From: Eutreptiella sp. 'Long Island Sound 2002'
Taxonomy: Eukaryota > Euglenozoa > Euglenophyceae > Eutreptiales > Eutreptiaceae
Length of the DNA stretch: 64,000 nt
NCBI GenBank assembly: GCA_964036045.1
Contig: OZ038379.1
Coordinates: 110,988,611 to 111,052,610 of the forward strand
Direction of reading: 5' to 3'
Shown here: positions 1 to 60,628 of the stretch, piece after piece
Layout: the number at the start of each line of letters is the position of its first letter
Position numbering within the stretch: position 1 is the first letter of the stretch
Made by a program: the position numbers and the translations under genes
Notes under the pieces: generated by a model
What the model was told of the DNA's origin: nothing
What the model saw: only the letters and a program-made list of their open reading frames with translations
Databases searched by the model: none

Positions 1-2
1 CC

Positions 3-10981: not shown

Positions 10982-11159
<178 letters not shown>

Positions 11160-20705: not shown

Positions 20706-20741
20706 GATCCGGCGGGGGGCCCCGATCCACACGTGCAGCCA

Positions 20742-20744
20742 TGA
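20742..20744 (+). other. In-frame TGA between ORF1 and ORF2 (copy B)
   Basis: Same position and same overlapping ATGA context as in copy A. ORF2 continues in frame with no ATG before the endonuclease motif at 20778. Confidence 0.85.
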
Positions 20745-26700: not shown

Positions 26701-27264
26701 GTCACGCCCTTGACACCCTGGGCCTCGAGGCGGTCATTGAGGCTCGGGCGGGAGGACAACGCTTGGTTCTGGCTTCCGCCAGGGGCCCGGAGCAGGACGG
26801 GGTTGATGTCATCGGGGAGGTCTTACGGGACTACGGTTGGGAGCTCCTGGCGCATGGCACGCGCAGCCCCAAAGTGGCGCGGTGCCCCCGGCTGCTTGAG
26901 AGCCTGCCGGTGATGCCCAATGGGCGACCGATACTCCGCCCGGTGTCCACGTGGGAGGAAGCGAGGCGCAGCATCCTCAGTTGTGCCACGGCGCGCACGC
27001 TGGCGAGGGCTTTGCTCGGGCTCCAGGACGCGTGCTGCGATGTATGGCACGACCTGTGGTCGCAGTGTTGTGAGGGTAGCTGCGTTCCATCGAGGTCTGT
27101 GCTTCCGCAGCGATGCCACGGGTGCAGGGAAACGGTGTCAGTTTGGGTTCATCAGTGTGCCTCCGCCCCGCTGTGCGGGACATGTAAGGAGCGTGCCGAT
27201 AGGGGGTGGCCTAAGGCGAGGTGGGCACTGCGGCACTCTGGACAGATGTCCTCAAGTGCCTGGA

Positions 27265-27270
<6 letters not shown>
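20745..27270 (+). pseudogene. Copy B ORF2: APE endonuclease, RT, RNase H (frameshifted, 3' truncated)
   Basis: Open in one frame from the TGA to about 25838, the longest uninterrupted ORF2 stretch in the window. It covers the EEP endonuclease, the RT (FDVSKAFD, LRQGSAESA, YCDD) and RNase H (SSDASPQG, PEAEII, VVDASVIG, APDSAAARAM). The endonuclease motif GDFN reads GDFS, which would replace a catalytic Asn. A 2-nt deletion near 25655, shared with copy C, throws the CCHC finger (CIFC, then GHMRLLC) into another frame. A 1-nt deletion near 26404 shifts it again. The coding sequence ends abruptly at an internal GACTAT joined to the TA tract at 27269, so the end of the C-terminal extension is missing. 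Confidence 0.92.

Positions 27271-27308
<38 letters not shown>
27269..27308. repeat. (TA)n tract joining copies B and C tail to tail
   Basis: About 40 bp of pure TA repeat. It is entered from copy B by GACTA and left toward copy C by TAGTC, making a symmetric junction. Confidence 0.95.
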
Positions 27309-27311
<3 letters not shown>

Positions 27312-29535
27312 ATAGTCATAGTCATAACCACTTATCATGCCGTCTACTGGAGTTACCGGGCATCTCGCGCCGACAGGTGGTTCCTGCCTCGCTCGATGCC
27401 GTGGGTCCCAGGGCTGCCTGAGGTGGCCCACAGCATGACGGAGGACCCAGAGGACCGGGGATACCGGTCAACCAGGCTTTGGGGGCAGTGGCAACTGCAA
27501 AGCGTTAGCATTAGCAACGGCGACGGACGCTGGCCCGTTTGTTCGCCGGGGGTAAGGGGGCAAGGCAAAGCAGCGCAGCAGCATCGCAATAAGCCGAAAG
27601 CAAGGGCTTCTCTGTCCGGCGCAAAGCGGCAACCAAAGAACAAAGCAGCACGCATGCGGCGAAACGAGAGCTGACCCTCTGTCGTTCGCGTACCCCCGCC
27701 ACCGTGGAGACATCCATCACTCATGACCCCATGGAATCCATTGCCGTCTGCGTCCTCGAAACTGCCCACCACCCCTGACTCCACGTATCCCTCTGCCAGC
27801 ACGCAATAGCCCGTATGTGCATAGCCAGGATTTCTGGGAGGCTCCAGCCTAGCCTGGCCCTCAGCTTTCATCGCCCCCATGTCTCCACAATGTACGCCAC
27901 CGTCCCACCGCACCAGTCCCCTAGTATAGTACAGAAACACGGTACCAATTCCACGTCCCCGTGGCCCTGAGCTGCTCCCACACCCCAGATATATACCATG
28001 CCGGCACCCCATGTCAGGGGCCAGCGCCCAATCTGCTTCGAGGCATCCACTTGCCCACATATAATATATCTTGAGGGTCTACAGGGGGGGACGCCGGCCG
28101 CTACGCGACGGGAGTGGCGCAACCCGTGAATATCGCTGGCTGGGATTCGGGCTGGTGGGTGCCGTAGCTTGGTTATCGACCCCCTGTAGGGGTACCCACC
28201 AGAGGCTCGCCCCGGGCCGTGGTAACCAGGTGCACCTCATCTGGCCCACATACATTGCCCTGGCGCCTACCCTTGACCCTTACCTGCACTGATTGGCCAG
28301 CTTCCGTGGTTGCGCCTCTTCCGCCACAGCAGCGGCCACGCCGCAGGTTCGGCCCCCACCGACGACGTGGCGAGCCTACTTATAGCATTGGCCCGCGCGT
28401 CACCCCCCGGACCACTCAGCATGCCGCTCCTCTGCCCTCCTCGCCTCTAGCGGACCGGACTGGCGCCCCCCAGGGGTAAGCCGTTACAGTGGTGAGGCGA
28501 CTGCATACTCTTCGCTACGACGCCACGCAGTACCGCTGTTGCCACGCCGACGCCACCTGCGAGCCGCCACGACACGCACCACCGCAACCACAAGGCCATG
28601 GTCAGAGGTTAGACTATGTACATGCCGAGGCACGGTCCCTCTAGTTTGTTAACGGGGCCAGGGGATGCCCCCGCGCTCCCCCTGAGTTGTTAGAGGGGTC
28701 AGGGGGACACCCCAGTACCGCCATGCAACCCCGTAGCGCCCCCACTGTACGGCCCTCCAGTACCGCCGCGTACCCTCACCATACGGTCCCCAGTACCGCC
28801 GCGTATACCCCCACGACGCCAGTACACCGTCATCTAGAACTTCCCCGCTGCTCCCCCACTGTACGGTTCCCCAGTACCGCCGCGTACCCCCACCGTACGG
28901 ATCCCAGTACCGCCGCGTTTACCCCCAAGACTCCAGTACGCCGTCACCTGGAACTCCACGTGCCCCCCGTGAGTGCTCCTCCCAGGCTGCCACGCCGTCT
29001 CCACGACGCCCGCCATACTGTCCCCCTGACGACCCCACTGTCATATCCTTCCACGCACACTTCGTCGCCTCGTCGCCGCTCCCGGGGCCTGCAGGCTGAC
29101 CCCGCAACCCCGTGTAACACTCCCAGGGTGCGCCGCAACGCTGTAACCCCCAGACAACTCCGTGCACCCCCGGTGTATCCCGAGCAACCACTCCCAAAAC
29201 TGCCGTAGCCGGGCCGCCAGTAGAGACCCCAGTGCCATGGGAATACCCTATAGGGGTTTGGGCCTTATTACCCTGGTCGGGACGACCCATGACACCTCAC
29301 TGTTGTATGCGGCGACCCGGGGCAGGCGGGTGAAGCATCCCTGTCCGACCCTCATGCACGGGGGCAGTACGGCTCACCATCAGGCCGGCACGACCTGTCA
29401 CATCGCGTTGGCCGTCATACGCCGCCTGCCAGTACCGCACAATCAGGCCGCGAAGGCTCTGCTTCTCCGGCGCTACCCTCTCCGCTGCGTCCAGCGTAGG
29501 GACGGTAGCTGGTGCACCCACAATTCCCAACCCCA
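27309..29535 (-). other. Copy C 3' UTR with (TATGAC)3 end
   Basis: Matches the copy A 3' UTR throughout, including the terminal hairpin, the TATA-like islands (about 27987-27996, 28060-28070, 28378-28391) and the VNTR. Three TATGAC units (read on the minus strand, 27309-27326) form the extreme 3' end. Confidence 0.85.
28705..28945 (-). repeat. VNTR in copy C 3' UTR
   Basis: About seven imperfect units containing CCAGTACCGCCGCGTACCCC on the plus strand, longer than the matching arrays of copies A and D. Confidence 0.75.
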
Positions 29536-32500
29536 TCAATCTGCACCCCCGGCCCCCACCACGCCGTCACCATTTCCTCCGCGATGCCACAACCAGAGTA
29601 TCCGTGAGTCGCCCTCTAGAGCCGCCCACCACAGCATCAGGGGCAGGGCCGCAGACGGCGCTCCAGGGCACCGTACCCCTTCCACTCGGACTCTCTTCAG
29701 GCCATCCTGGATAGTCTTCCAGGCACTTGAGGACATCCGTCCAGAGTGCCGCAGTGCCCACCTCGCCTTAGGCCACCCCCTATCGGCACGCTCCTTACAT
29801 GTCCCGCACAGCGGGGCGGAGGCACACTGATGAATCCAAACTGACACCGTTTCCCCGCACCCGTGGCATCGCTGCGGAAGCACAGACCGCGACGGAACGC
29901 AGCTACCATCACAACACTGCGACCACAGGTCATGCCATACATCGCAGCACGCGTCCTGGAGCCCGAGCAAAGCCCTCGCCAGCGTGCGTGCTGTGGCACA
30001 ACTGAGGAGGCTGCGCCTCGCTTCCTCCCACGTGGACACCGGGCGGAGTATCGGTCGCCCGTCGGGCATCACCGGCAGGCTCTCAAGCAGCCGGGGCCAC
30101 CGCGCCACTTTGGGGCTGCGCGTGCCATGCGCCAGGAGCTCCCAACCGTAGTCCCGCAAGACCTCCCTGATGACATCAACCCCGTCCTGCTCCGGGCCCC
30201 TGGCGGAAGCCAGAACCAAGCGTTGTCCTCCCGCCCGAGCCTCAATGACCGCCTCGAGGCCCAGGGTGTCAAGGGTGTGACGGGCATCGGCAGCCACGTG
30301 GTCGTCCCCTTCTGGCAGAGAGAACATGGCCTCCGTGACGTGGTCCTGCGCGTCGTTGCCCTGTACCCGTGCCAGCTGCTTGGAGCCCACTAACACTGCC
30401 ATGGACCGCTGCTCCGTGACCGCTGGTACGGCTCGTCGCAGCTGTCGGTCATACAGCCACAACGTACCCACGTCAAGTACGACAGCCACCGCCAGGATTG
30501 GGAGACTGCACAGAGGTTGCTGAAGGACCGGCAGCACCTCGCGAGGCCAGCCCATGACGTTCCCCACAGCTGGATGGTTGGCGTATACCTGAAGCCAGGG
30601 ATCACTCTGGCCGTCAGGGCTTCTCACCTTGGTACCACGCACCTGGGCCCACGATTGCGCCGACACCACGCGGGACCACTCCCTGAATGTTGTGATGTCC
30701 CGCGCCACCCAGGAACCGATCCACTGGTCGAAGGCCTGCGCCACCGCCGCCATCCAGTGAGGGAACAAGGACAGGGCCTCGTCATGCTCGATGCACGACC
30801 GCGACACCAGCAGTGCGTGCAGCAGTGCCCTCCGAAAGGTTGCCCGCAGGTCGCCGGGGAGGCCGGCAAACGGGTTCCACGGCGGACGCTGCAGGACCCT
30901 CCCTGCCGGCGGGCAGAAGGGTGTGTCACCGCGCAGGAACGCGTATACCGCTCTGCTTCGATCTTGCATCGGCAGCTGCATGATCTGGGTGAGCCGATGG
31001 TTCCTGCGGGCATACACATCTTCCCCAATCTGGACCATGTCCTCCACAAAGAGCCTGGCCTTGGCAGGGCCCCGGGACGACGCCGCTCGCACCGCAGCGA
31101 ACAGCCGCTTCAGGTCCCCGGGGACGACACCCGCCATCAGGGATTCAGTCCACCTGCAGCCGTGCTCCCTCCACGCCACGAACTCCACCGCCCTGTCCGT
31201 CAGGGGCAGCTCCTCCGTGAACTCCTCCACACGCCTGCACAGGAGCCCAGCCACCTCCTCGTCTCGCGCACACAGTAGGCGCATCTGGCCAATGTCCTCC
31301 TCCGGCCCCCCACAGAAGATACAGGGGTGGGCTGGTTGCCATACACGTGAGCTTCTGTCTCCACCGTCGCATGACCTGCATGGTGGACAAGCGTCCGTCA
31401 CGTGCCCGCAGCATATTCCTGTGCGTTGGGCCGTGGTGTACAGCTCCCAGGGGCATCGCCTCGCAGGCGCCAGCCAGTGGCGTGTGCGCCCTGGTGCGAG
31501 CCGCCAGCGAACGCCACTCCATCTCCCGGACTTGCTGAAGGGCTTGCATGGATGGCACACGCGGCTCGAGCTCACCATTATCCCCCGGCACCAAGAGGAT
31601 GGCGTGCTCCTTTGGCAGGACAAGATGGACAGGCGGGGCCATTGCACGGGCCGCGGCAGAGTCCGGTGCCTCGAGCGGGACCGCCGCCAAGTGCGAGCTC
31701 TGCCTCACCACCCAGTGGTGCGGCCCCCCAACTCGGCGCGGCAGCCGCCGCAGCCCCTCCACTATCCACCTCAGTGCGTGCTGATTGACCAGATGTGATG
31801 TCGGCCCCTTGATGCCACGGTACAGGGCCTCCTGCGCCCTGCGGAGATGCGCTCCTATGACGGACGCATCCACCACGTGTACCGTGCACGCTGACGGGGG
31901 CGTGTGCAACAAGTACGCCGCCGCGCCAATGATCTCTGCCTCCGGGACCGTGCCGTAGATGGCACCCGTCCACGTGGGGATTCCGTGGCTGGCCACCGCC
32001 ACGTTTGTGGCGTCGTCTCCCTGGGGCGACGCGTCAGACGATGTGACTTTAGGGGCCACCGGCACCCAGCAGTACCGGTGGGGCTCCAGCCACGCCACGT
32101 CGGAGTGGGGGCTCTGCACCACCTTTCCCAGGGACGCCGCACTGGAGGCCGTGAGCTCCGGGGACAGGACCACCCTCGGTCGATACACCGCATGTGGTCT
32201 CCAGGCCAGGTCACATCCGCAGACTGACTTTATGGCGTCCAGGGCGGTGGTATACTCCGCTCCCCAAACTGTTGCGGAGCAGGAAGGCTGGTATACCACC
32301 ACAGACCCCTGCTCCACTGCGCCGCCATCACGCAACGACGTGACGGCGACGTGCGGATCGTGCGGCACGTTGGACATCCGGACCACTTCCGGGACCGAGT
32401 ACTCATCCGGATCCGGGATTGGGCCTGCTGGCAGCAGAAGAACAATTGCCCATTCGCTGCACTTGTGCACCGCCGCGCACGCCCTGGAAAACGCTGGCCG

Positions 32501-35500
32501 CCCGTGCACAACCCACAGTGGTGGCGGGCTTATGCCGCCCCCGGCGTGAGGAGTGAGCAGGGGGACGGACGCCGGATCGTCTTGCTGTTGGTAGCCCTCA
32601 AAGACGTCCCCCAACAGAAACAGGAGGGCGGCTAGCGGGACGAACGGCATGGACAGCCCCGGGTTGGCCGGGTCCCATCCTTCCTCCCTGTATCCGCCCA
32701 CCACATACACGTCCCCCGCTGCGGACTGTCTATTGCGTTTGCTGGCCTTCTTTCGGCGCACCGGGTGTATTAGCCGGTGAGTCAACGGACCGGGCAGCTG
32801 CGGCCGGAAGACGTCTCGAAGCCCCGTGAGCCACAGGTGGTCCAGCTGGTGGGGCCCTACTCCCGCGTGCGGAAGGTGCAGGTGGTCCTCATGGCACTCC
32901 TGAAGCTGGACCGCCCAGTGCCCAGGCGCAGGGCAGGGGAGCCGCGCATGCAGGAGGTCATTTGCGGGATCAGTCAGGGACTGTACTGTCGCATCTGTGC
33001 GGGGCCCCGAGAGAATGCAGATGTCCCTACCCTTGAAGGTATAGGATTGGGACACCCACTTCCGCCCCGCCCACTGCACTTGCGGCAGATGGGCGTGTAC
33101 ACACGAGTATACCGACGATGGCATGAGAAGCCCTACGCGCAACGTCCCCATCGCTCTGAGTACCCTGTCCACCCACGTATTGCCAGCGTGTGTGGCGGAT
33201 GACGCAGAGGGCACCATGAACTGCCCGCACACTCCGTACTGCACGTGCATGTCTCGGAGCATGGCCCGCAGCTCATCCCGGACTGTCGTCGACCTGTGGT
33301 GGGTGAGCTGAGCCATGGTCGCCACGACGGAGTCGCGGCATATAACCTGGACATCCGCCAACCGTAGCCCATGACCTGACCGCACCGCCACGTTGGACAG
33401 GTCCTTGGGCAGCTTCTCGAACTGCAGGGCCGCAGCCTTGATGGCAGTATTCAGCTTGATCACCGCCTCCGCCGTGTCGGACAGGTAGGGCGCCGCGTAC
33501 CGCACGATGCCTCCAACCACAGCCGCCATCACCTCATGAGGCACCGACGCCAGCCCTAAATTGTTCTTGCACCAGCCCAGCAGAGCTTCACACCGGAGTA
33601 CATGTCTCTCCTTCATGGTCGCCATCCCCCTGGGATCGAGGCGTAGGCCCAAGTATGGTACCGTGCCCTTGGCACGTAAGCATACCCATGGGGCCGCCGT
33701 GTCCCCTGGGTTCAGGTATACCATAATCGAATGGATGCGAGCAGTATTGGCATAGGCGCATTTGCCCACGTTGAGGGACATGCCCATGTCAGTGAGATAC
33801 CGCGCTATCGCCGCCGCATACTCCAGGAATTGCGGCAGGGAGTGCGCTATCAACAGGAGGTCATCACAGTACGCCTGCACCAGGGGTGGCACCGCATGGC
33901 GAGCATCTCCCCGCGCCTTGCAGGCGAGGCTCCACAGGAGAGGCTCCAAAAGGAGGAGGTAGAGCACAGCGCTCTCCGCGCTGCCCTGCCGCAGGCCCTT
34001 GTGGAGTCGTATGCTCGGCGTCGGGCCGTGCGCGGTGATGATGCGCACCAGAGACCCGCAGCTAGGGTGTGGAAGAGCCTGATGAGCTCTTCCGGGACAC
34101 CCGTGTGGCGCAGGAGGAGCGCCAGCGCTCCGTGCGGCGCTGTGTCAAAAGCTTTTGACACATCGAAGGCCACGACGTGGTTTTCCTCCAGCCCACGCTG
34201 CAGCCTGCGCTGGGCCAGGAACACCGTGGCAGCCGCCGTGGAGCCCGGCATGGCTCCGAACTGCCAGTCCGCGGCCAGTCCCTTGCGTGCCAGAACAGCT
34301 GTGAACCTCCGCATGAGGGGAGTCATGAGCATTCGCATGTCTTGCTGCCCCAGCGCTATCGGCCTGTACTCGTCCAGGTTGCCCGTGGCTGTGCCCTTGG
34401 GCATCAGCCAGATAATGGCCTCGTGCCAGGACTCCGGGACGTCCGCACCCCGTAGGATAGCCCGGTACGCGTGCACCAGGAGCCCCTGCACCGGTTCAGG
34501 CAGCTCTGCTATGAGGGCAGCCGTGACCCGGTTGGCCCCGGAGCTTTGTCGTCCGCCACGGCCTGCCTCACGGCGTCTTTAAGGTCCTGCATGGTGTAGT
34601 CCTGCACCGACCTCCATTCCTCTGGCACCCCTTTGGGAATGTGGACCCGGACCAGCCGCTCGAAGGCCGGCAGGTTCACTGGCCGCTTGGCGTACAGCGC
34701 CTCCCAATACCTCTGGACCTCACCGATGACGTCCGAGGCCTCCAAGAGCACCTTCTCCGACTCGCGGACGCGTACGGACCATAGGCCTGACGGGGCATAG
34801 TTCACCACGTTGATGGCCCCCCGTATCGCCGTCCATCGGAGCTGCAGATCCGGTACCCTGCCCCGCCAGTAGTCCTTGATGGACCGGCGCCTGTTGCTCC
34901 TGAGGACATCCCGCAGCTCCTCCACGCGTGTCTCCAGCTGGTGGAGCTGTTGGTCCAATGCGGCACGCAGGTCCTCTACCGAGGCGGGGGACAGGTCGGG
35001 GTCCACTCGCCGGAGGTGGTGTAGCAGGGCAGTCGCTTCCTGGGAGTGGAGTCCGGCCGCCGCCGCGTCCCGTTGCCACAGCTGATGGGCGCGCCAGGCC
35101 AGGGCCTGCTGATCCGAGAGGACCTGGTCCAACGACGCCTCCGTTTCTGAAGGCATGCGCACTCCCGTGACCCCGGACACGTCATCACGGAAAGCGTAGA
35201 GCAGGTCAAAGACCGCTTGCACCTCCGACGTGCCCATGGTGGCAGTGTCCTGGTCCGACGAGAGCCACGCCTGTAGCCGCCGATCCCCGCAGGCCTTCTG
35301 CAGTACTGCCGCTGCCGCCTCACGAACCCCCGGGGAGTCCGGGCGTATGGCATGCAGCCTGCCCTGGGCGTGCGAGTAGGCCATCCTGGTGACCCTCTCC
35401 TTGCCGGCCACCGCCAGTGCGATGTCCAGGACCACAGGGCCATGATCCGACCCCAGTGACGCAGGAGACCGCCCCGGCGCCAAGTGAGGGCGCTCACGCG

Positions 35501-36203
35501 CCGCCCATGGGACCAGAGGCGAGTTTAGAAGGAAGGAGTCCAGTCGGTGCCCTGCCCTCGTGGGCCTCCTGTCCTCCTCCCGTTCCGGGCCTGCCCTGTG
35601 GAAACCACACTGTTCCCACAGGGCTTGGAACCTCCTCGTGGTAGGGTGCCACGGGGACTCCAGCCACACGTTGAAGTCCCCTCCGAGGAGCACGGCCCTG
35701 GTGCCTCCCGCGCTCTTGGCCGCCGCGTACATGGCCACGTCAGCCCAGAAGGACGCCTTAGACGCCCAGGAGTCGCCGCCGCTACCCGGGCCGTGGACGT
35801 TGATGACCGTGAGGGTGCCACCTGCGGTCACCACATCGAGGGCCATGGCCTTGCCTGGCACGATGTCCACGATATCTCGAACTTCCTCCGCGGCGAACAC
35901 GTCCGCCCGAAGGGCAATCAAGAGCCCGCCGCGCACCGTCGCCGCCGACGCCGCCTGGGCATCCACCCCTGGGTACGCATGATACCCGTGGTGACGCCAC
36001 TGGTTCTCGGAGTGCACCACACCTTGTGGGTCCTGCAGGCCGGTCTCTTGGAATAGGCCTAGGATGGCACCCTCAGCCTTCATGATGCCCGCCGCCACCG
36101 CTTCACCGTCGAGCATACCTGGGGCCACTGGTACGCCGTCCCCCCGCATCGAGCCCTGGACGTTCCAGGACACCGCCGCTCGGGTGTCGGAGGCTGGGCC
36201 CCT
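29536..36203 (-). pseudogene. Copy C ORF2: APE endonuclease, RT, RNase H (three frameshifts)
   Basis: The first part (36203 to about 34535) holds a complete set of EEP motifs (SWNVQG, LFQETG, NVHGP, GGDFNVW, HRLDSF, GSDHGP). Single-base deletions near 34535 and 34065 split the RT; all motif residues remain, including YCDD. The frame then runs to about 31335 through RNase H. There the 2-nt deletion shared with copy B moves the rest into another frame, which is open to the TGA at 29536. The CCHC finger has lost its His (GQMRLLC instead of GHMRLLC). Eleven residues between endonuclease and RT (after VRMPS) are missing in frame near 35146. The C-terminal extension with the Cys cluster is complete. 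Confidence 0.92.
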
Positions 36204-36206
36204 TCA
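36204..36206 (-). other. In-frame TGA between ORF1 and ORF2 (copy C)
   Basis: Here both flanking frames are otherwise open for hundreds of codons: ORF1 ends HVQP-TGA and the frame continues to SWNVQG without an ATG. The overlapping ATG is out of frame. Confidence 0.88.
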
Positions 36207-38777
36207 TGGCTGCACGTGAGGATCGGGGCCCCCCGCCGGATCCGGATCACTGGACGGAGAGGGGCCACCAGCAGGTTCAGGGGAACCACCCGCACCCGGC
36301 GCGGGCGGTCGGCGAGGTGGCCCCAGACCCCGTGGGCCTCCGCCCGAGGCGGTCGTCGCCTGCTGAGACCCGGCTGATGCGGCGGGCTCCCCCTCTGCCT
36401 GTCCGCCAGACGCACTTGCCGCCGTACTCCCCGTTGAAGTCACTGCCCCACTCCGTGCTGCAGACCCTATCGCCCCAGATCGTGCCGCCGACGACGATGC
36501 CCCGCGCTCCGCCGCAGGGCGGGCACCGGTGGGCAGCGTGAGCGCTCTGGACCCCGCCTGGGCCGACACGAAAGGCCCCGCCTGGCCCCCCGGCATAACG
36601 CCAGCCAGCATGGCCAGCGCCTGGTCCCGTTGCGCCGGATCAGTCGCATGGTCCCGCTGGATGTGGTCCAGCAGGTCCTTGGGGTGGAGGTGGGTAGGCC
36701 GGCAGTGCGTGCCAGCTTTCCATGTGCAGTGACTAGCCCCATCCAGCCGAGACCAGGGGCAGACATTGATCGTCTTTGTCCCACGCTGATCCGTGGCCAA
36801 GTCACCACCGAAGTGCTGCAGCACGTACCGAATGTTGGCATAGCCGCCATACTGAGGCGGCTGGCCCCTCTTGGGCGGCGGCTTGGGCGCCGCTTTCGGG
36901 GCCTGCCTCGCCGCCGCGGCCGGGGGTGCCGCAGGCCGTACCGGTGGCACGCTTGGTGGTTGCGGCAGGTGCAGCATTCCCCCCACGGGAAACTGCTCCT
37001 CCACCCAGCGGCGCCACGCGTCGGCGAACTTCTCCCGGTCGCCCTCGACCTTCCACCTGGACGTGGAGAACGCCCGGAGCCACGGCCCCATGTTCTCCGC
37101 CATGACCAGGCGGAGGGCATCTCCTCCGCTCTGCCGGCGGAAGCGTGTCGCGGCCGCGCCTGTCACGGTCCCTTGGAGGTACAGCGCATCGCCCCCGTCG
37201 CCACTCAGTGCACTAAGGTGCAGGGCCTCCAGGTCGGCGGGGCGGACCGTGAGCACTGTGCCCTCTCCGCGATCGTACAGGCGCAGCGCCGAGGAGTGGG
37301 GCTCCAACGCCACCACAACCCAATACCACGCCCGCGACGCGCTATGCAGCAGTGCCAGCGAGGCTGCCGGCCTGTTGCTGGAGGACTGCGCCGCCGGGGC
37401 CCTGGGAAGGGCCGCCGCGTGACCCTGCAGCGCCCTGCACATGCCAGCTGCATGCTCAGCCTGCCACACATTGCTCGGGGCTACGGGCCAGACATCCTGC
37501 CCTTGGATCACCGGCGGCCGCGTGACCTCCACGAAGACCGCCGGCGCCGGCGGGATGTCCTCGGCCGTGCACTTGTGCGCCCTGCGCACCGGCCCCAGCC
37601 CACTGAGGCACTCCCGGGACACCCGGTAGCAGGCCGGGCCCCTGGACTGCTGCCTCCTGAGCCGGCACGCGGTGACTACGACCCACTCCAGTCCCCCTAT
37701 TTCCACCCGAACACAGGCCCAATACTCCTCCCCCTCCAACACCACCAGCCGCCCCATATCCGCCATGCCCACCGCATGGGTGGAGGGTACGCTCTCCACC
37801 CTCAGCCACCGCTTGGCGCTTTCTTCCCACGGTTGGGGGGCATGCATCTGCTGCTGCTGCATCGCGTCCTGCACGTGCTGCAGGGACACCGTCGCCAGCA
37901 TGGACATCCCCCCGTCCGCCGCCGCCGCCATACACAGCAGGGCATGTTGCATGCGCGCCCCGGGCAGCCCCACGTTGTGCGGGACGTTCGCCAGGTCCAA
38001 GGGCGTGCGGGGCGCCGGCAGGGCCTCCAACACCGCTGCAGGCAGCTCCCCCAGGGACGGCAGACGCGCGATGGGCCCCATGTCCCTGTTGAAGACCACC
38101 GCCGCCACCCACCGCCTGTCCAGCGCGGACAGGAGGTTGCCCGGCCTCGGCACCCGGAGGAGGGTACCGACGGCGGACATGAGGGCGCACACGCCACAGT
38201 CCTTGGTGTTGCCGGCCGGCTGCTGCACCTGTGCCGCCCGGGCCTCCGCCAGCAGATGCTCTGCACCCGGCCATCCCGCCCTCTGGCCCCTGGGTGCCAT
38301 GCGCATCGTCCGGACCGCCATGTCCCACGTGTGCGGCCATTGGGGCGGGCCCCCCGACACCACAGGCCGGCTCAGCGGGTCCACGGCCAACCGCATGTCA
38401 GGGGCCACGAGGTGGTGGGCCGTCCAGTGCCGCATGCCCGGCGCCTCCAACCAATCGAGGTACACCGCCTCTGAGCCCCCCAGCTCGACGTACCTCGCAA
38501 TGAGGAGGGCAGCCGGGGTTTGGTCGTGCCGCTGGCCCTCCCACCCCTCCCTCGGGAGCATCATGGCGTGGGGGGCCAGGCACTGCACCACGTCGGCTGC
38601 CAGCGCGACCACGTCGTCGCTGAGCTCCACCCCATGGTACGCGGCCACCAGGAAGTGGTGCCTCGGCTTGGAGTACACGTGCTCCGGGGCGCCCCGCAAC
38701 TCATCTGGCGGGTGAGAGGCATCTCCGCAGCCCCGCAGCCAGGGGAGTGCGCCCGGGAGACGCCGCCCTGCTCCTCC
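36204..38777 (-). CDS. Copy C ORF1, Ulp1-like (C48) cysteine protease part, intact
   Basis: Open for about 857 codons in the same frame as the upstream ORF1 part, from which it is separated only by TAG-TAA at 38778-38783. No convincing ATG lies near its beginning. The family signature is complete: His in MRHWTAHH, Asp 16 residues later in VDPLSRP, Gln in VQQPAG, and Cys in KDCGVCAL. Ulp1-type proteases cleave SUMO-like modifiers or polyproteins. Ulp1-like domains are known in some RLE-type LINEs (NeSL, Utopia), but here the partner is an APE-type ORF2. A Cys/His cluster (INVCPWS to HIQRDH) near the C-terminus looks like a nucleic-acid-binding finger. The sequence is also preserved in the divergent copy D, which supports a real function. 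Whether it acts on itself or on host proteins is unknown. Confidence 0.85.
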   Translation of the reverse strand, partial: GGAGRRLPGALPWLRGCGDASHPPDELRGAPEHVYSKPRHHFLVAAYHGVELSDDVVALAADVVQCLAPHAMMLPREGWEGQRHDQTPAALLIARYVELGGSEAVYLDWLEAPGMRHWTAHHLVAPDMRLAVDPLSRPVVSGGPPQWPHTWDMAVRTMRMAPRGQRAGWPGAEHLLAEARAAQVQQPAGNTKDCGVCALMSAVGTLLRVPRPGNLLSALDRRWVAAVVFNRDMGPIARLPSLGELPAAVLEALPAPRTPLDLANVPHNVGLPGARMQHALLCMAAAADGGMSMLATVSLQHVQDAMQQQQMHAPQPWEESAKRWLRVESVPSTHAVGMADMGRLVVLEGEEYWACVRVEIGGLEWVVVTACRLRRQQSRGPACYRVSRECLSGLGPVRRAHKCTAEDIPPAPAVFVEVTRPPVIQGQDVWPVAPSNVWQAEHAAGMCRALQGHAAALPRAPAAQSSSNRPAASLALLHSASRAWYWVVVALEPHSSALRLYDRGEGTVLTVRPADLEALHLSALSGDGGDALYLQGTVTGAAATRFRRQSGGDALRLVMAENMGPWLRAFSTSRWKVEGDREKFADAWRRWVEEQFPVGGMLHLPQPPSVPPVRPAAPPAAAARQAPKAAPKPPPKRGQPPQYGGYANIRYVLQHFGGDLATDQRGTKTINVCPWSRLDGASHCTWKAGTHCRPTHLHPKDLLDHIQRDHATDPAQRDQALAMLAGVMPGGQAGPFVSAQAGSRALTLPTGARPAAERGASSSAARSGAIGSAARSGAVTSTGSTAASASGGQAEGEPAASAGSQQATTASGGGPRGLGPPRRPPAPGAGGSPEPAGGPSPSSDPDPAGGPDPHVQP

Positions 38778-38780
38778 TTA

Positions 38781-41700
38781 CTAGACGGCGGCCTTGAGGA
38801 CCGGCAGGTCCCGCCAGACAGCCCTAGCGACCGGATCGCGCCAGGGCTGTGGCTTGTTTGCACCCCATTGGAGGACGGCCACCACATCATGCGTGGTCAG
38901 GGGCTCTGCCGTGAGCTGCAACGCTGTCCCCCCGTCGGTCTCGATCACCGTGCCCCTTGGGGCAGTGAAGACGTGGCCATCGGCCCCACGGACCGCCACC
39001 CATCCCCACAAGACCGCCACGGTCTCCCAGCTGGGGTGGTTGGTTCTCCTGGGCAGGACCACCACCGGTGGGGACGGGCCGTTGGCGGCCCACACGCGCC
39101 ATTCCACTCCCACCAGACGCTCGTGACCAGGGGACCGGTACACTTGGGGCCACGCGTCTGGGAGCTGGCGATGGACAGCGGTCCACACATCAGCCCCGCC
39201 AGCCCGCGTGAACTGGGTTCCCCCCAGGATGTCCCCGTCCACAGGGCTGGGGAGGCGGGCGGTGCGAACTTCCAGCCCCTGACCCAGGCGAAGCCCTGGC
39301 CCCTCACGGTCTCCCAGCAGCGAGACCTCCGGGTCTGTGGCCGCAAGACGAGCCGCCACTGCGGGGAGATGCAGGGAGACAGTCCACGGCTGGACTGAGA
39401 CGGGCCCGCGCGGGAGGTCAGGGCAGGCCGCCACAGCACTGCCATCCCTCGCCCAGCTGAGCGCCCTGTCCCACCACTGCGCCCACGCACCTGGCGCTGC
39501 CGGCAACGACCAGGACAGGTACGTCACGACCGCCTTAGCCTGCCACTCGCGAGGGTCCATGCCGGCGGGGTGTGTGTGCCACGTGCACACCCATCCCAGA
39601 TTGGCTTCCTGGACGGCGACCACGTCCCTCCACGGGACCACCGGGAACGGAGTGAGCAGGGCCGCCATGCCACATGGCAACGCCACCGCCCACTCGGTCA
39701 GGCCCCCACTCTCCACCGCATACCCCACCGCCGGGAGCCCTCCCCCTTGCGCCTTTACCACCGCTTCCTGCAGCAACGTTCCGTGGCCCCGGCCGTGGTC
39801 CTGGCTGCGGTCCAGGCTGAGGGCCCCCACACGGGCCATGGCCTGGAGGATCGGGAGTAATTCCTGGGGTACTCCCCGCGGCACCGGCGGCTGGGGGTGT
39901 GCGTACCGGCAGGCATCTGCCCGCATGCACCACCCCTTGGCCCAGTGCTTGCAGGTTTCCACCTCCCCCGTCTTCGGCCCAGCCTTATCCGCCACCCCCA
40001 GCTCCCGTGGACCCACCTCACGCGCCTCCTTCGCCCCCACGATCACCAGCTCCTCGTCCTGCTCCCCGGCGCCCTGTGCCTCTTCACCCTTGAACACCGG
40101 CTCCTCGTCCTGCTCCATGGCGACTTGTGCCTCCTCACCCCTCCTGCGTTGGTCCTCCTCCTCCAGTGCCTCCGTCGTCGGCGGCGGGCCCGCAGCATCC
40201 GTGAACTTCGCCAGGGCCGCCGCCACAATGGCCTGCACGTCCACCTCCTCCCCGGCCACCTCCGGCTGATCCTGCTGCTGCTCCTCCCCCGTGGGTTGCT
40301 CTTGCCCCACCCCGTCACCGCCACGGCCTGCTTCCTCGTCACCCCCCACCGGGATCGCGTGTTCGGACCCCGGGGGGGCGGCGCTCCCGTCGAGGCGCGT
40401 GCCCACCACCACCAGCAGCTTGAGGTCACCGCCGCGGCTCTCAAGGCGGTAGCTGCTGGTGGTGGGGACGAGGACCGCCCCATCCCCGGTCAGCAGCAGG
40501 CGGTCCGCGTCGAACACGACCTCTGCACCCTCACAGTGCAACGCCACCAGGAGCGCATGGGACCCCAGCGCCTGGGGTGTGAGGGGCCGCTCGGCCTGCT
40601 CGCGACGCCAAGCGTCAGCCCCACCTCGCCACAAGGCCACGTACAGGCCTTCGTCCCGCCGCACGTCCTCCAGCCCTGCCTCGCCCAGCAGGCGCCCCAC
40701 GGACAGGCGCACCGACAGGGGGAGGCCTTCCTGGGGCTCGGCCGCCCGGACATCACCGGGGTGGTGACCCAGGACCGCCGCATCCCCCAGTTGGACACAG
40801 CGGACCTGGCCGTTGTCCGGGGACGCTGCCGCCAGGGCCATCTCCCGGGCAACCTGCCCTGGGCGCTGGAGCTCATAGCGCTCCAGGGCGCCCGCCCGCA
40901 ACCCTGCCTCCCGCTGCCCCGCGCCCGTGAGGCGGTGCCTGTGGGCGCCCTCGGCCGCATGGTACCCGCAGTGCCGCCGCTCACAGCTCCCCAGGGGAGG
41001 GCACGGCACCGCAGTGGGCATGGGCCGCAGCGGCTCGTTGGCCGGGTCCTCGTCCATGCCGGCGTAGACGTCGGGCCCGGCGTCGTCCTCAAACATGAGG
41101 GCCAGCGCCGACTCGCCGGGCCCGTATGCCTCCTCGTCCCCCTCGCTCTCCTCCTCCTGCTCCCCCTCCACCCCTTCTCCATCCGCGACCACCGCCGGCG
41201 GCGTGTCCGGCCGCGGCGGGAAGGGCGCCAGAGGCCGCTCGTCAGCGCCTCCGCCCCTTGCCGCCTCCGCCGCGTCCAGCCGTGCCCGCAGGTTGGCGGG
41301 CAGCCGGGCCCAGCTGGTGCCCGCATGGAGATCCATGCGGTACGCCAGCCCCGCCGGACGCGGCTCACCGGGTGCCACCTGGCGCCACTCCCGCCACTCC
41401 CACATCCAGTCCTCCACTCCTTCCCCCTTGGCACGTCCCCCACTGGGCTCCACGACCCCGCCGCCCTTCGCCGGCGTGTGCGCCTTCGGCACACCCCGCC
41501 CCGCGTCCTGTCCCCCCGAAGAAACCGCCTCCGTCGGCGTCTCCTTGGCCGCTTCCGCCCTCGGGGCGACAGCCGCGAGCGCCTGCGCTATCAGCTCGCC
41601 GGCGTCAGCCCCTTCCGGCGCGGCTCCCCCACTCCCCACGGCTGTCCGCCGGTAGTCCTCCAGGGCCTGCGCGAGCAGCTCGCTGATGTCTCGCGGGCCA

Positions 41701-43349
41701 GCCACTGCCGCCTCCTGCGCTGCATCCCCCTGTCGTTCCCCCGCCGTAGTCCTCCCCATGGGGGCCGCGCCCTGCATCCCATGCGTCGGGGGCAGACCCC
41801 CACCCTGCACCACGGGCTCAGGGTGCGTCGGCACCACGGGCGGGGCTTCGCGCGGCACGGCAGGGTCCGGCATCTGGACCGTCCGCGGTGGTGACCCCGC
41901 CGCGGGAAACTCCGGCTGGGGCACCGCCAGGGGTGGCGCAGCCGCAGGTGCCCCCATTCTCCTCGCCTCGCCCGGGGGCACGCCACGTGCCTCCCCTTGC
42001 GACACCCCCTGCTGTTGGGCGCCCCGCCCCGGCCCAGGTGCCGGTACCGGTACCGGCACCGGCATTGTGTGCTGAGGCACCGGCCGTGAGTGCTGCTGGG
42101 GCAGGGGGTGAGGGTACTCCACATGCAGGTGCGGACGGTGATGGTGATGGTGATGGTGAGGGTGGACGGGGTGCTGCGGCACAGCCCCTTGCGACACCCC
42201 CTGCTGTTGGGCGCTCCGCCCCGGCCCAGGCACCGGTACCGGTTCCGGCACCGGCATTGTGTGCTGAGGCGGTCGTGGGTGCTGCTGGGGCAGGGGATGT
42301 GGGTACTCCACATGCTGGTGCGGACGATGATGGTGATGGTGATGGTGAAGGTGGACTGGGTGCTGTGGCACAGCCCCTTGCGACATCCCCTGCTGCTGGG
42401 CGCTCCGCCCCGGCTCAGGCACCGGTACCGGTTCCGGCACCGGCATTGTGTGCTGAGGCGGCCGTGAGTGCTGCTGGGGCAGGGGATGCGGGTACTCCAC
42501 TTGCTGGTGCGGAAGGTGATGGTGACGGTGATGGTGAAAGTGGACGGGGTGCTGTGGCACAGCCCCTTGCGACACCCCCCGCTGCTGGGCGCTCCGCCCC
42601 GGCTCAGGCACCGGTACCGGCTCCGGCACCGGCACCGTGTGCTGAGGCGGCCGTGGGTGCTGCTGGGGCAGGGGATGCGGGTACTCCACAAGCTGGTGCG
42701 GACGGTGATGGTGATGGTGTTGGTGTAGGTGGATGGGGTGCTGTGGCACAGCCGCCAGTTCGTGGTGATGGTGAAGATGGACGGGGGGCGGTGGCACGGC
42801 TGTCGGGTGTACGTGTTGGTGTGGGAAGTGATGCTGCATCATGGGGAACCCGACGGGGTGATGAAGTAGGTGATGGAGATGGAGTTGGTGGTGGTGGTGA
42901 GCCCCAAAGGGCGGGATGGGCATGGGCCCGAGGCCTGGGGGCGGCGGCATCGGAAACGCACCCGGCGCCGCATACCCCGGCTGCCCCGCCGACCCCACTG
43001 GGGGCCGCCCGCGCTGCGCGTCCTCAAACTGCCCGAGATCTTGTAGACATCGGAGTAGTCGGTTGAGCAGGTGCAGCCCGAACGGCACCGTGCCCGCTGC
43101 GAACCGCGCCTGAACGTCGGGCGCGTTGTACGGGTGGGGATCGCGGGCCAACATCTGCCGCAAGCAGACGTCGACGAAGTGGTCCCATCCGTTGTCCCTG
43201 GCCGGACGGTCCGCGTCCATGCGCGCCTGGAACGCCGCATACGTGTGCGGCGCGTGTCTGACGAGATCAGACACTGTGTCTACCAGGCGCCGGGCACGTC
43301 GCCGGAAGGCTGGCAACTCCGCGGGATTGGCGGGGACAGATAGCGACAT
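38781..43349 (-). CDS. Copy C ORF1, N-terminal gag-like protein, 1522 aa, CCCH finger
   Basis: Starts at an ATG giving MSLSVPANPAELPA, the same start seen in copies B and D, and is open for 1522 codons to TAG at 38781-38783, followed at once by TAA. Residues 1-105 form a conserved block. Residues 115-200 are Pro/Gly/His-rich. Residues 201 to about 452 are four His-rich 63-residue repeats. The middle is Ala/Glu/Pro-rich with three short motifs of ELLAQALEDY type. The CCCH zinc finger is Cys 1133, Cys 1141, Cys 1147 and His 1151. A conserved HTHP lies near residue 1258. CCCH fingers and low-complexity regions suit an RNA-binding protein that coats the transcript. No closer family is recognised. 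Confidence 0.85.
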   Translation of the reverse strand: MSLSVPANPAELPAFRRRARRLVDTVSDLVRHAPHTYAAFQARMDADRPARDNGWDHFVDVCLRQMLARDPHPYNAPDVQARFAAGTVPFGLHLLNRLLRCLQDLGQFEDAQRGRPPVGSAGQPGYAAPGAFPMPPPPGLGPMPIPPFGAHHHHQLHLHHLLHHPVGFPMMQHHFPHQHVHPTAVPPPPVHLHHHHELAAVPQHPIHLHQHHHHHRPHQLVEYPHPLPQQHPRPPQHTVPVPEPVPVPEPGRSAQQRGVSQGAVPQHPVHFHHHRHHHLPHQQVEYPHPLPQQHSRPPQHTMPVPEPVPVPEPGRSAQQQGMSQGAVPQHPVHLHHHHHHHRPHQHVEYPHPLPQQHPRPPQHTMPVPEPVPVPGPGRSAQQQGVSQGAVPQHPVHPHHHHHHHRPHLHVEYPHPLPQQHSRPVPQHTMPVPVPVPAPGPGRGAQQQGVSQGEARGVPPGEARRMGAPAAAPPLAVPQPEFPAAGSPPRTVQMPDPAVPREAPPVVPTHPEPVVQGGGLPPTHGMQGAAPMGRTTAGERQGDAAQEAAVAGPRDISELLAQALEDYRRTAVGSGGAAPEGADAGELIAQALAAVAPRAEAAKETPTEAVSSGGQDAGRGVPKAHTPAKGGGVVEPSGGRAKGEGVEDWMWEWREWRQVAPGEPRPAGLAYRMDLHAGTSWARLPANLRARLDAAEAARGGGADERPLAPFPPRPDTPPAVVADGEGVEGEQEEESEGDEEAYGPGESALALMFEDDAGPDVYAGMDEDPANEPLRPMPTAVPCPPLGSCERRHCGYHAAEGAHRHRLTGAGQREAGLRAGALERYELQRPGQVAREMALAAASPDNGQVRCVQLGDAAVLGHHPGDVRAAEPQEGLPLSVRLSVGRLLGEAGLEDVRRDEGLYVALWRGGADAWRREQAERPLTPQALGSHALLVALHCEGAEVVFDADRLLLTGDGAVLVPTTSSYRLESRGGDLKLLVVVGTRLDGSAAPPGSEHAIPVGGDEEAGRGGDGVGQEQPTGEEQQQDQPEVAGEEVDVQAIVAAALAKFTDAAGPPPTTEALEEEDQRRRGEEAQVAMEQDEEPVFKGEEAQGAGEQDEELVIVGAKEAREVGPRELGVADKAGPKTGEVETCKHWAKGWCMRADACRYAHPQPPVPRGVPQELLPILQAMARVGALSLDRSQDHGRGHGTLLQEAVVKAQGGGLPAVGYAVESGGLTEWAVALPCGMAALLTPFPVVPWRDVVAVQEANLGWVCTWHTHPAGMDPREWQAKAVVTYLSWSLPAAPGAWAQWWDRALSWARDGSAVAACPDLPRGPVSVQPWTVSLHLPAVAARLAATDPEVSLLGDREGPGLRLGQGLEVRTARLPSPVDGDILGGTQFTRAGGADVWTAVHRQLPDAWPQVYRSPGHERLVGVEWRVWAANGPSPPVVVLPRRTNHPSWETVAVLWGWVAVRGADGHVFTAPRGTVIETDGGTALQLTAEPLTTHDVVAVLQWGANKPQPWRDPVARAVWRDLPVLKAAV
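41991..42749 (-). repeat. Four tandem 189-bp coding repeats in copy C ORF1
   Basis: Same His-rich 63-residue unit as in copy B, four copies, frame kept. Confidence 0.9.
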
Positions 43350-44484
43350 TTAGCTAACGAAGGCTGTGTGAGCTAAGGACACGGGAGAACGGGTGGACTC
43401 TGTGGCCCGTCCCGCTTGCTGCTGGCTTATTGTTGCACGACACTTCGCACGACACAGTTGCGCACCCCTCCCGCGCGCCCCTCTTCCCTTTCGTCTTCCT
43501 TTGCCCCCGGTTGTGCCCGTTAGGTGTGCCCCTTGGCCCAGCCCGGTTGTTGGCGGGCTTGTTGCCAGGCAGGGTTGGGGGGGGGAGGGCGCCCGACGCT
43601 GGCTCTGGTCCCTCTCTCCGGGAGTTTCCCCACGGGGGGGCCGATGCATGCACTCCCCGTCACGGTGTAACTCTGTTGTACGGGCCGTCCATTGGTACCC
43701 GCTCAGTACAAATGGACCTGCGTCGTAACCAGGTACGTCGGCCCTTCCCCACACCGGGGTCGGGTACACTGTGGGTCTCTGGGGACTCCTTGCGGGATAG
43801 GCACGTCTCTTGCCTACCCCGATGGACGGTGTGCCCTACCCGCAGCCCCTCACAGGACGAGAACCGCAGTACGTGCCGTGGGGAGTGCTCTTGGTCAGGC
43901 CCATTGGCCACCCCCCCAGGCCGGTGCCACCTCGGGCCGCTGGCCAACGGTCCCGGGCGTAACCCACCTTGTTGCCTGCGCTCAGGTGGGGCCGATACGG
44001 ACACCGGGGGGGGGGCCCAAACCCCAGAGGTCGGGTACCTCACCAGCGTCTTTCGCGGGCTCTTGTCACCCCGGCTCCCCCCCGTTCGTTGCGGTGTTTG
44101 TCCCTGCCTTCTTGCTTTCGTCCCCAGGGGCGTCCCCCTGTCCCACGCCCCTTGCCGTGCCCTCTGGCCCCCGCCATGCCCCGTCCGCCCCTGCTGTCTG
44201 CCCCTGCTCTGGCGTGTTGGTGTCCTTTGTTGTTGTTTTTTTTTTCCCCTCCCCTGCCCCCCCCCATGTCCCCTCGCTGTCTCCTCGCTGTCATCGCCCT
44301 TTTCGTGGGTGGGTGGAGGAGTAGGGGGAGGGGGGGGGGGGGGGGCGTCCTCGCTGTCCGCCCTATTGCGCAAGCACGTCGTAAGCACGGCGCAGGCACG
44401 AGGCGCGGCACTTGTCCCTCCGCTGGGGGGGGGGGGGCTTGCCGTGTGGCTCCCGCCGTCACCCTACCCTTCCTGCGGTTGCGG

Positions 44485-44485
<1 letters not shown>
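43350..44485 (-). other. Copy C 5' UTR
   Basis: About 1.1 kb from the TA tract to the ORF1 ATG. It is roughly 110 bp longer than in copy B at the outer end and rich in C/G homopolymers. The hairpin of copy B recurs at 43687-43717 with one mismatch. No coding frame is credible. This is the most complete 5' end in the window. Confidence 0.8.

Positions 44486-44561
<76 letters not shown>
44486..44561. repeat. (TA)n tract at 5' end of copy C
   Basis: About 76 bp of TA repeats with a single GTA interruption, directly abutting the 5' end of copy C. Confidence 0.95.
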
Positions 44562-45171: not shown

Positions 45172-45242
45172 ATATATATATATATATATATATATAGATT
45201 AGAGGATATATATATATATATATATATGTATGCATGTATGTA
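45172..45242. repeat. (TA)n tract between MITE-like element and copy D
   Basis: Two TA runs split by GATTAGAGGA, ending in GTATGCATGTATG next to the 3' end of copy D. Confidence 0.9.
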
Positions 45243-47244
45243 TACCGGCCAACCAAGCTTTGGGGGCAGTGGCAACCGCAAAGCGTTAGCATTAACAACG
45301 GCAACGAGCGCTGGCCCTTTTGTTCGCCGGGGGTAAAGGGGCAACGCACAGCAACGCACCAGCATAGCAACAAGCAGAAAGCAAGGGCGTCTCCTATGGG
45401 CGCAAAGCAGCAACCAAGGTACAAAGCAGCACGCATGCGGCGAAGCAAGAGCGGGCCCCTCGTTGCTCGCATACCCCCGCCACCGTGGAGACGTCCATCA
45501 CCCGTGACCCCACGTAATCCATTGCCCGCTGCGCACTCGCATATGCCCACCACCCCTGACTCCACGTAACCCACTGCCAGCATGCAATAACCCATAGATG
45601 CATAGCCACGATTTCGGGGAGGCTCCAGCCTAGCCTGGCCCTCAGCCTTCATCGCCTCCATGTTCCCATACTGTACGCCGCCAACCCATCACACTAGTCC
45701 CCTAGTATAGTACAGAAACATGGTAGCAACCCTACTTTCTGTGTGGCCCCGAATTGCACCCACACCCCATATATATACCGTGCCGGCACTCCGTGTCAGG
45801 GGCCAGTACCCAATCAGCTTCGGGGTACCCACACGCTCCCATGTATAATATATCAAGAGGGTCTACAGGGGGGACGTTGGCCGCCCCGCGACGGGAGTGG
45901 CGCAACCCGTGAATTTCGCTGGCTGGGATTCGGGCTGGTGGCTGCCGTAGCTTGATTATCGACCCCCTGTAGGGGTACCCACCAGAGGCTCGCCCTGGGC
46001 TGTGGTAACCAGGTCCACCTCATCTAGCCCAAATACGTTGCCCTGACGCCTACCCTTGACTTTTACGTGCACTGATTGGCGAGCTCCCGTGGTTGTGCCG
46101 CTTGCGCCACAGCAGCGGCCAGGTCGCAGGTTCGGCCCCCACCGACGACGTGGCAAGCCTACTTATAGCATTGGCCCGCGCGTCACCCCCCGGAACACTC
46201 TGCATGTCGCCTCGAGCCGATCAGGCATGCACCCCCCAGGAGCAAGTTGCCGCAGTGAAGACTAGGTAGGTTACACGTATATAGAGGCGACTGCATACTC
46301 GGCACTACGCCGCCGTGTAGTACCGCCGTCGCAACGCCGTTGCCACCTGCGAGCCGCCACCGCACGCACCACCGCAACCGCAAGGCCGTGGTAAGACGGT
46401 TAGACTATGTACATGCCCTTAGGCACGGTCCCTCTAGTTTGTTCACGGGGCCAAGGGATGCCCCTGCGCTCCCCCTGAGTTGTTAGAGGGGTCAGGGGGA
46501 CACCCTAGTACCGCCATGCGACTCCGCAGCGCCCCCATTGTACGGCTCCCCAGTACCGCCGCGCTTCCCCGGTACTCCCACCATACGAACCCCAGTACTG
46601 CCACGCATACCCCCGTGACCCCAGTACATCGCGCCTGCAACTCCGCGTACCCCTCAAGACTGCACCTCCCAGATTGCCACGCCATCCTAAGTACGCCCAC
46701 CCTACGGTCCACCTGACCATCACGCCGTCGCAATCCTCTATGCGCACTTCGCCGTTTCCTGGGCCATCAAGCTGCTCCCCCAACCCCGTGCAACTTGCCC
46801 ATGACCAGGGGGCGTCGTAACTCATGCACCGCAGCGCCGGCAGCGCTGTCGCCCGCCCCCACACTGACCCGTGAACCCTCGGAGTATCCCGAGCAACTAC
46901 CCTCGTAAGTGCCGTAACCGGGCCGCCGGTAGAGACCCCGGTGTCATGGGAATACCCTACAGGGGTTTGGGCCTTATTACCCTAGTCGGGACGACCCATG
47001 ATACCTCACTGTTGTACGTGGCGACCCGGGGCACGCGGGTGAAGCATCCCTCCCCAACCCTCATGCACGGGGGTAGTACGGCTCACTATCAGGCCGGCAC
47101 GACCTGTCACATCGCGTTGGCCGTCATATGCCGTCTGCCATCACCGCACACTCAGGCCATGAGGACACTCCTTCTCGGTGCCACCCCCGCCGCTGCGTCC
47201 AGCATAGGGACGGTGGCGTGCGCACCCACATTTCCCACACCCCG
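45243..47244 (-). other. Copy D 3' UTR
   Basis: Aligns with the 3' UTRs of copies A and C, including the AT islands (about 45769-45778, 46161-46175) and a short VNTR (about 46505-46630). The terminal hairpin and tail are missing. Confidence 0.8.
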
Positions 47245-60615: not shown

Positions 60616-60628
60616 GTATATATACATC

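Follow-up and report, generated by a model that had tools for sequence, protein, structure and literature searches.

A probable single LINE of about 21 kb, with its own ends and a TA target, in the genome of the euglenid Eutreptiella

Long interspersed nuclear elements (LINEs, the non-long-terminal-repeat retrotransposons) are usually 4-8 kb long, and the question raised by a 64,000-nucleotide stretch of the genome of Eutreptiella sp. 'Long Island Sound 2002' (contig OZ038379.1, positions 110,988,611 to 111,052,610; hereafter the window) is whether a repeated sequence of some 17 kb, carrying two very long open reading frames (ORFs), can be one such element. A first-pass annotation of the window had read its copy C as a complete LINE of exceptional size, with copies A, B and D confirming the order of parts. 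We found that the ORF1 and ORF2 parts very probably belong to a single LINE unit, of ~21 kb, with its own ends and a TA target, and that the family is present at high copy number in the 2.28-Gb genome.

To follow the parts of the element outside the window, we counted sequence patterns over 2,280,300,865 bases in 2,205 contigs. A pattern spanning the ORF1-ORF2 junction, with its ORF2 side fixed and its ORF1 side nearly free, occurred at 917 places (481 + 436; control 0), and ORF1 sequence lay directly upstream of ORF2 in each of the 30 junction loci that were fetched, the shortest ORF1 match extending ~330 nucleotides (nt) upstream and the shortest ORF2 match ~110 nt downstream. The 3' end was found at the expected distance, 8.75-8.96 kb downstream, for 24 of the 49 junctions checked (those within the range spanned by the 100 listed 3' ends), compared with 1 in the upstream control. 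Three consecutive TATGAC units occurred at 1,161 + 1,217 places (reversed-pattern control, 7 + 3) and the 3'-terminal 16-mer GATAAGTGGTTATGAC at 1,031 + 1,112 places (reversed control, 0), which amounts to at least 2,143 common 3' ends. The first-pass placement of ORF1 and ORF2 in one LINE is thus supported, and the outcomes that it had named as fatal, the two parts occurring separately or joined by chance, were not what the genome-wide copies displayed.

The 5' end of the element was located in copies elsewhere. The first 19 bases of C have just one other occurrence in the genome, on a short contig, and 6 of 10 pieces fetched from the expected 5' place matched the 5' part of C. Four of these six, on another contig, were traced upstream, and their homology reached 3,654-4,010 bases beyond C's position 4, starting just after a TA tract; since the four copies extend to this common end, C must be 5'-truncated. 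From the 5' end to the 3' 16-mer they measure 21,251, 20,896, 20,784 and 21,220 bases, and the interval between C's position 4 and the junction differs in them by no more than ~105 bases from that in C. Differences within the leader show no codon pattern (131, 157 and 142 at the three codon positions between cp40 and cp41). Copy F of the window starts at the same 5' end and accounts for the window's 103-bp tandem repeat, and a 23-mer from this end occurs at 85 + 57 places in the genome. In L043, one of the ten fetched 5' regions, the 5' part is inverted and repeated.

Within the window, copies A, B, C and D are collinear when aligned to C, with identities over aligned positions of 96.4% (A), 97.9% (B) and 85.9% (D), and the alignment bore out the coordinates and the order of parts that had been assigned to C, as well as the use of A, B and D in their support. 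The annotated lengths of ~2,380 and ~2,230 codons agree with those measured (2,381 and 2,235), and C has, as described, a 3' end in TATGAC and a flanking TA tract on either side. The description of C as structurally complete did not hold: in addition to its missing 5' part, C is not coding-competent either, with stops in ORF1, breaks in ORF2 and a 33-nt deletion not shared by A, B and D. Accordingly, the size stands as exceptional against the usual LINE length, while the 17 kb first given to it is that of a truncated copy, the fuller copies reaching ~21 kb. The 5' points of B, C, D and E differ from one another, a variable 5' truncation. At the end of ORF1 in copy B (19311-20677), 1,367 bp have been inserted, with duplication of a 28-bp target; this putative mobile element contains palindromic AGTGAGCGCTC units and, by eye, neither a terminal inverted repeat nor poly-A. 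Copies B and C adjoin tail to tail over 40 bp of TA (27240-27330), and the internal GACTAT at which B stops resembles the family's terminal motif.

Judged by their substitution patterns, both ORFs are real and kept by purifying selection. Throughout both ORFs, the sites at which C and D differ fall preferentially at one codon position, and the favoured position shifts near the base losses of C (at a resolution of 500 nt). The ratio of nonsynonymous to synonymous substitution rates (dN/dS, with codons containing gaps or stops excluded) between B and D was 0.36 for ORF1 (1,752 codons) and 0.14 for ORF2 (1,613 codons), and for the C-terminal part of ORF2, compared between C and D, it was 0.27 in frame (578 codons) and 0.99 and 1.63 in the other frames. 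ORF1 codon 1524, a stop in B and C, is a sense codon in D and in all five database homologues, and lies outside the span of A. The number of 63-codon repeats in ORF1 varies within the family, B and C having four and D being largely devoid of them.

The element's 5' end reads TCTATTTTTTTTCG-ATGTCTTGCAG, and its first part consists of the last bases of the Euglena gracilis spliced leader, given as ACTTTCTGAGTGTCTATTTTTTTTCG in PMC6242988. A spliced leader 23-mer occurs at 3,397 places in the Eutreptiella genome (1,652 + 1,745; control 0). Among the 13 5' ends examined (12 loci and copy F), the exact leader suffix measured 16 nt in F and 8, 10, 15, 16, 6, 17, 14, 14, 9, 4, 9 and 0 nt in the twelve loci, being at least 10 nt long in seven and at least 14 nt long in six of the 13, and the locus with 17 nt reads ACACTTTCTGGGTGTCTATTTTTTTTCG, which is the whole 26-nt leader with one change. 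The 14-nt suffix occurs once in the window, at copy F. Because the 5' ends keep these remnants, the element RNA appears to have been trans-spliced, now or ancestrally, and a trans-spliced RNA is the likely template, whether trans-splicing recurs with every cycle or took place a single time in an ancestor. Elsewhere in the genome, L067 holds several spliced-leader copies in series, as if retroposed transcripts had been trans-spliced repeatedly, and at L057-L063 and L065 the leader is followed mostly by GT and a conserved sequence; these are likely spliced-leader RNA genes, dispersed along a contig.

TA tracts are found at both ends of the element. At the 3' side, (TA)6 lay within 30 bases at 846 of the 1,031 forward-strand 3' ends (only these were counted, since forward starts are listed once each whereas reverse starts repeat), and at the 5' side a TA run of at least 12 lay upstream in 10 of the 12 loci, with TA tracts also at the 5' ends of B, C, D and E. 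A target-site duplication would be hidden, because the insertions adjoin TA repeats. The sequence beyond the 5' TA tract of C (44561-45171; TACTACACCCCTCTCCCC..., then 143-bp tandem repeats) also follows a TA tract at the distant tail locus L001, and since this flank recurs there the TA target may itself belong to a further repeat family.

Several observations weigh against this account of the unit, its ends and its leader. Of the ten pieces from the expected 5' place, four did not match C and one of the six that did was rearranged; all four long copies in the window are interrupted by stops or frame breaks, leaving it with no intact copy; the TATGAC terminus is present in three of five window copies (A, C and E), B stopping at an internal GACTAT and D at GGTAT without it; 185 of the 1,031 forward-strand 3' ends lack (TA)6 within 30 bases, as do 2 of the 12 5' loci the upstream TA run; and 6 of the 13 5' ends have fewer than 10 exact leader nt (by eye, five have a shortened T run or changed bases and one has no leader). 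Each ORF is sized like a usual LINE and A, B and C are adjacent, so a chance join of two elements, or the spread of copies by segmental duplication, might be imagined, but with 917 junctions and 2,143 3' ends dispersed genome-wide on both strands and differently truncated we give it practically no credence. That the TA tracts are a product of the insertion process or of slippage, rather than chosen targets, also appears improbable: such tracts do expand easily, yet they also adjoin the 5' ends of B, C, D and E and 10 of 12 full 5' ends, where a 3' tail cannot make them. The leader remnant is a closer matter. It could have been acquired once and then copied as DNA, so that the present RNA is not trans-spliced at the site, and this is quite possible, given that the remnant varies between 0 and 17 exact nt and that most copies have the same A after it, as though by inheritance. 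A fresh leader would, however, also be shortened by truncation at the TA join, and one locus carries all of the leader, with a single change, which is more than the majority of copies could hand down. We rate a leader added in each cycle and then clipped at the TA join, and an old leader passed on by descent, as about equal; either would be compatible with a trans-spliced template.

Having placed the ends, we turn to the junction between the ORFs, where a TGA separates two ORFs that share one frame, an arrangement missing from the first-pass annotation. Among 100 listed of the 917 junctions, the codon was TGA in 98, TAA in one and TGG in one. In 6 of the 30 fetched loci the TGA is flanked by open frame throughout the stretch retrieved (501 codons on one side and 506 on the other), and since these loci are otherwise open, the TGA is not simply a sign of decay. 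The APE motif SWNVQG starts 12 codons past the TGA and the first in-frame AUG comes only beyond it; no in-frame AUG precedes WNVQG in any of the 22 loci with a readable motif (the other 8 of 30 could not be judged).

The domain content of ORF2 is that of a LINE. ORF2 has an APE-type endonuclease domain (E 4.9e-10) and a LINE-type reverse transcriptase (RT; RVT_1 E 2.8e-17), and in phmmer searches the RT matched 8gh6, which we take to be R2 (1.5e-16), chains named R2 (7.4e-9) and LINE-1 ORF2 (1.1e-12). The motifs SWNVQG, QETG and GSDHGP of the APE domain and FDVSKAFD of the RT are found in 4 of 4 copies, and GGDFNVW and YCDDLL in 3 of 4. A CCHC knuckle is located 578 residues ahead of the ORF2 end. 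No terminal repeat pair, as of a long terminal repeat (LTR) element, was present among the repeat families shown in the window, and the variable 5' truncation and common 3' end likewise agree with a LINE. A scan of NCBIfam gave weak group II RT (1.3e-5) and exonuclease III matches and none for the C-terminal part of ORF2 or the protease-like stretch of ORF1. This stretch has a putative Ulp1-like cysteine protease signature, whose pattern was composed after the sequence was seen and is present in 11 of 20,000 shuffles; it is kept in 3 of 5 database ORF1 proteins, and copy D has a stop inside it. Also conserved in ORF1 is HTHPAGMD (39555-39578), which recalls JAMM metalloproteases with a spacing that does not fit.

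A profile search with hhalign for a restriction-like endonuclease (RLE) in ORF2 gave a probability of 0.7%, against 96% for the single control pair, and one for RNase H gave at most 0.2%, against 94-98.5% in 7 of 7 controls. The profile for RNase H was built from 7 of the 11 candidates; of the others, two had no regular-expression motif, that of P0043 was cut off, and P0044 was left out despite having it. RNase H-like residues can be seen by eye at ORF2 1402-1526 and are partly common to the related protein P0017. AlphaFold2 models of the C-terminal part of ORF2 and of the Ulp1-like region were unusable (mean predicted local distance difference test, pLDDT, 32.7 and 30.6), and because of the former ORF2 may still hold a very divergent RLE in its C-terminal part.

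An RT search returned 33 proteins, the best cluster having 1,283 members. A second family, from public assemblies, comprises P0016-P0023, with P0040 and P0041 added by profile search (38 proteins); the P0016-P0023 family has 41-45% RT identity to the element, and the ORF2 of P0017 has 2,181 residues with APE, RT, CCHC and a homologous C-terminal part. It differs at the start of ORF2, P0018 having a Met 9 residues ahead of its SWN motif. For an RT tree we used 31 rows (ORF2, P0017 and 29 distant proteins), leaving out 24 closer relatives and 5 ORF1 proteins of the 60 records (59 from databases and the read-through P0034). ORF2 and P0017 pair (100/100) and then join P0026, P0028, P0030, P0032 and P0044 (98/92). 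Of these five, APE and RNase H are both listed for P0030 and P0044 and only RT for P0032; P0026 and P0028 match the two domains weakly. The R2-like rows form a group elsewhere in the tree (87/96), and an R2-like RLE LINE was rejected on this placement and on the RLE profile. No relative of P0001 was found among viral contigs, in a search from which records near the window were possibly excluded, and a literature search, most subscription papers being outside it, revealed no LINE recognised as this element or of this size. As in the first-pass annotation, which did not recognise the family, we could not match the element to any named one, RandI sequence lying outside the comparison.

Known systems share single traits with the element. 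Kinetoplastid SLACS/CRE LINEs insert into spliced-leader genes and use an RLE; they too are euglenozoan LINEs tied to spliced leaders, whereas the present element carries the leader as part of its own 5' end. Retroposed genes of dinoflagellates keep relict spliced leaders, likewise at the 5' end of a retroposed copy, whereas here the leader is on a high-copy, autonomous-type LINE. Waldo is an APE-type LINE that targets microsatellites. HERO and the (TG)n-specific Togen are described as microsatellite-targeting LINEs in PMC4640811. In all three, as here, copies lie within a simple repeat, whereas the present element has a (TA)n target, a far larger size and another RT lineage. PMC4640811 also lists NeSL and Utopia-1_TSP as RLE LINEs with an Ulp1-like protease, which they would share with our element; here, in contrast to these RLE elements, the signature is unproven and in a separate ORF1.

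How ORF2 is made, and whether the element is a known type in divergent form, were weighed on this evidence. ORF2 of LINEs is often coupled to ORF1 by re-initiation, and termination followed by re-initiation at a near-cognate codon (e.g. GUG 11 codons past the UGA), with no readthrough, is a serious contender here, if one we would not bet on: the UGA sits within AUGA in A, B, C and 26 of 30 fetched loci, and P0018 of the second family has the Met noted above. The AUG of AUGA is out of frame, however, and is replaced by GUG in D and 4 of 30 loci, and no in-frame AUG precedes WNVQG in the 22 readable loci. ORF2 production by UGA readthrough, which from the sequence we hold to be an even call, is preferred to non-AUG re-initiation only slightly, and several results speak against it: the RNA after the UGA folds no better than shuffles (z -0.32, 0.30 and -0.20, with 67, 118 and 86 of 200 shuffles folding at least as well), the constraint on overlapping or synonymous sites there was not significant (4 of 28 fourfold sites changed vs 23% overall, P 0.19), and two junctions have TAA or TGG. 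A hairpin and pseudoknot drawn by eye after the UGA were abandoned, the fold test being no different from shuffles.

A divergent member of Dualen/RandI, which would combine APE and RT with a second, restriction-like endonuclease, is an unlikely identity. Dualen carries a cysteine protease, and the element has APE, RT, CCHC, the putative protease signature in ORF1 and, by eye, the RNase H-like residues; RNase H is listed for Dualen/RandI in PMC4640811, and PMC3747384 gives green algal RandI 3' tails made of non-A simple repeats, namely (ATT)n and (CTATTT)n, comparable to the (TATGAC)n of the present element. This likeness is offset by the RLE and RNase H profile results given above, by an RT that, in a tree of rows other than RandI, joins rows listing APE and RNase H and not the R2-like rows, and by a host that is a euglenid and not a green alga. 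The protease signature is itself open to doubt: the full pattern is missing in 2 of 5 database ORF1 proteins, and the stretch had no protease match in Pfam (E up to 10), NCBIfam or PDB.

Put together as a mechanism, the trans-spliced mRNA would be the template for cDNA, the APE domain would nick inside (TA)n, and target-primed reverse transcription by the RT would start from the (TATGAC)n tail at the 3' end; a full copy would terminate within the spliced leader, or at it, and be joined there to the TA tract. UGA readthrough would yield a minority ORF1-ORF2 fusion of ~4,617 residues, which the Ulp1-like domain might cut. Broader still, and doubtful as a whole, is the idea of a clade of giant LINEs, of at least two families and probably in one euglenid genome, that share a trans-spliced template with its leader, a 21-kb cDNA, (TA)n insertion and a UGA-readthrough polyprotein of ~4,600 residues cut by its own protease.

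Table 1. Features of the window, in window coordinates
Feature	Position	Strand	Remarks
Copy A	1..11005 (end approximate)	+	Element 6100-17177; cut at window edge; terminates in (TATGAC)4
Copy B	11162..27271	+	Element 97/99-14775; both ends truncated; 1,367-bp insertion at 19311-20677
Copy C	27309..44485	-	17,177 bp; defines element coordinates 1-17177; 5'-truncated by ~3.7-4.0 kb relative to fuller genomic copies
Copy D	45242..60617	-	Element 1028-17025; more diverged
Copy E	61303..61767	-	465-bp 3' end, 5'-truncated; element 16713-17177; 93.8% identity
Copy F	61951..64000	+	True 5' end: 16 nt of spliced leader to 61965, then leader with 103-bp repeats; runs past window edge
TA tract at 3' ends of B and C	27269..27308		Adjoins both copies
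TA tract at truncated 5' end of C	44486..44560		Adjoins C
Leader part retained in C	43350..44485	-	1,136 nt; ~4.8-5.1 kb in four fuller copies
ORF1	36207..43349	-	2,381 codons; codons 1523-1524 are stops in C
189-bp (63-codon) repeats x4 in ORF1	41993..42753	-	His/Pro/Gln-rich; present also in B (12800-13560); mostly missing from D
CCCH zinc finger, ORF1 residues 1131-1153	39891..39959	-	Pfam zf_CCCH_4 E 3.8e-5, zf-CCCH E 8.5e-4; both below curated cut-offs
Putative Ulp1-like cysteine protease signature HW..D..QPAGN.KDCG, ORF1 residues 1641-1719	38193..38429	-	Pattern match
TGA between ORF1 and ORF2	36204..36206	-	Same frame as both; TGA in 4/4 window copies, 30/30 fetched loci, 98/100 listed junctions
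ORF2	29539..36203	-	2,235 codons across copies; in C broken at codons 568, 725, 1635
APE-type endonuclease domain	35442..36173	-	Pfam Exo_endo_phos E 4.9e-10
Reverse transcriptase domain, from copy B (frame unbroken)	22605..23342	+	Pfam RVT_1 E 2.8e-17
CCHC zinc knuckle of ORF2	31270..31323	-	His to Gln in C; His retained in A, B, D
3' untranslated region	27309..29535	-	Terminates in (TATGAC)3 at 27309-27326

Scans of the window with Rfam and ARAGORN gave no match. Elsewhere the genome has open frames as long as 6,122 codons that encode tandem PF00504 light-harvesting domains; such tandem arrays in long open frames are typical of Euglena.

To summarize, these data indicate that an RNA of ~21 kb, a length several-fold above that of typical LINEs, is within the reach of target-primed reverse transcription. 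They would join retrotransposition to spliced-leader trans-splicing, each 5' end recording how the RNA was made, and they present two LINE proteins that share a reading frame and are divided by a conserved stop. With this family, a large contributor to a Euglena-type genome is named.

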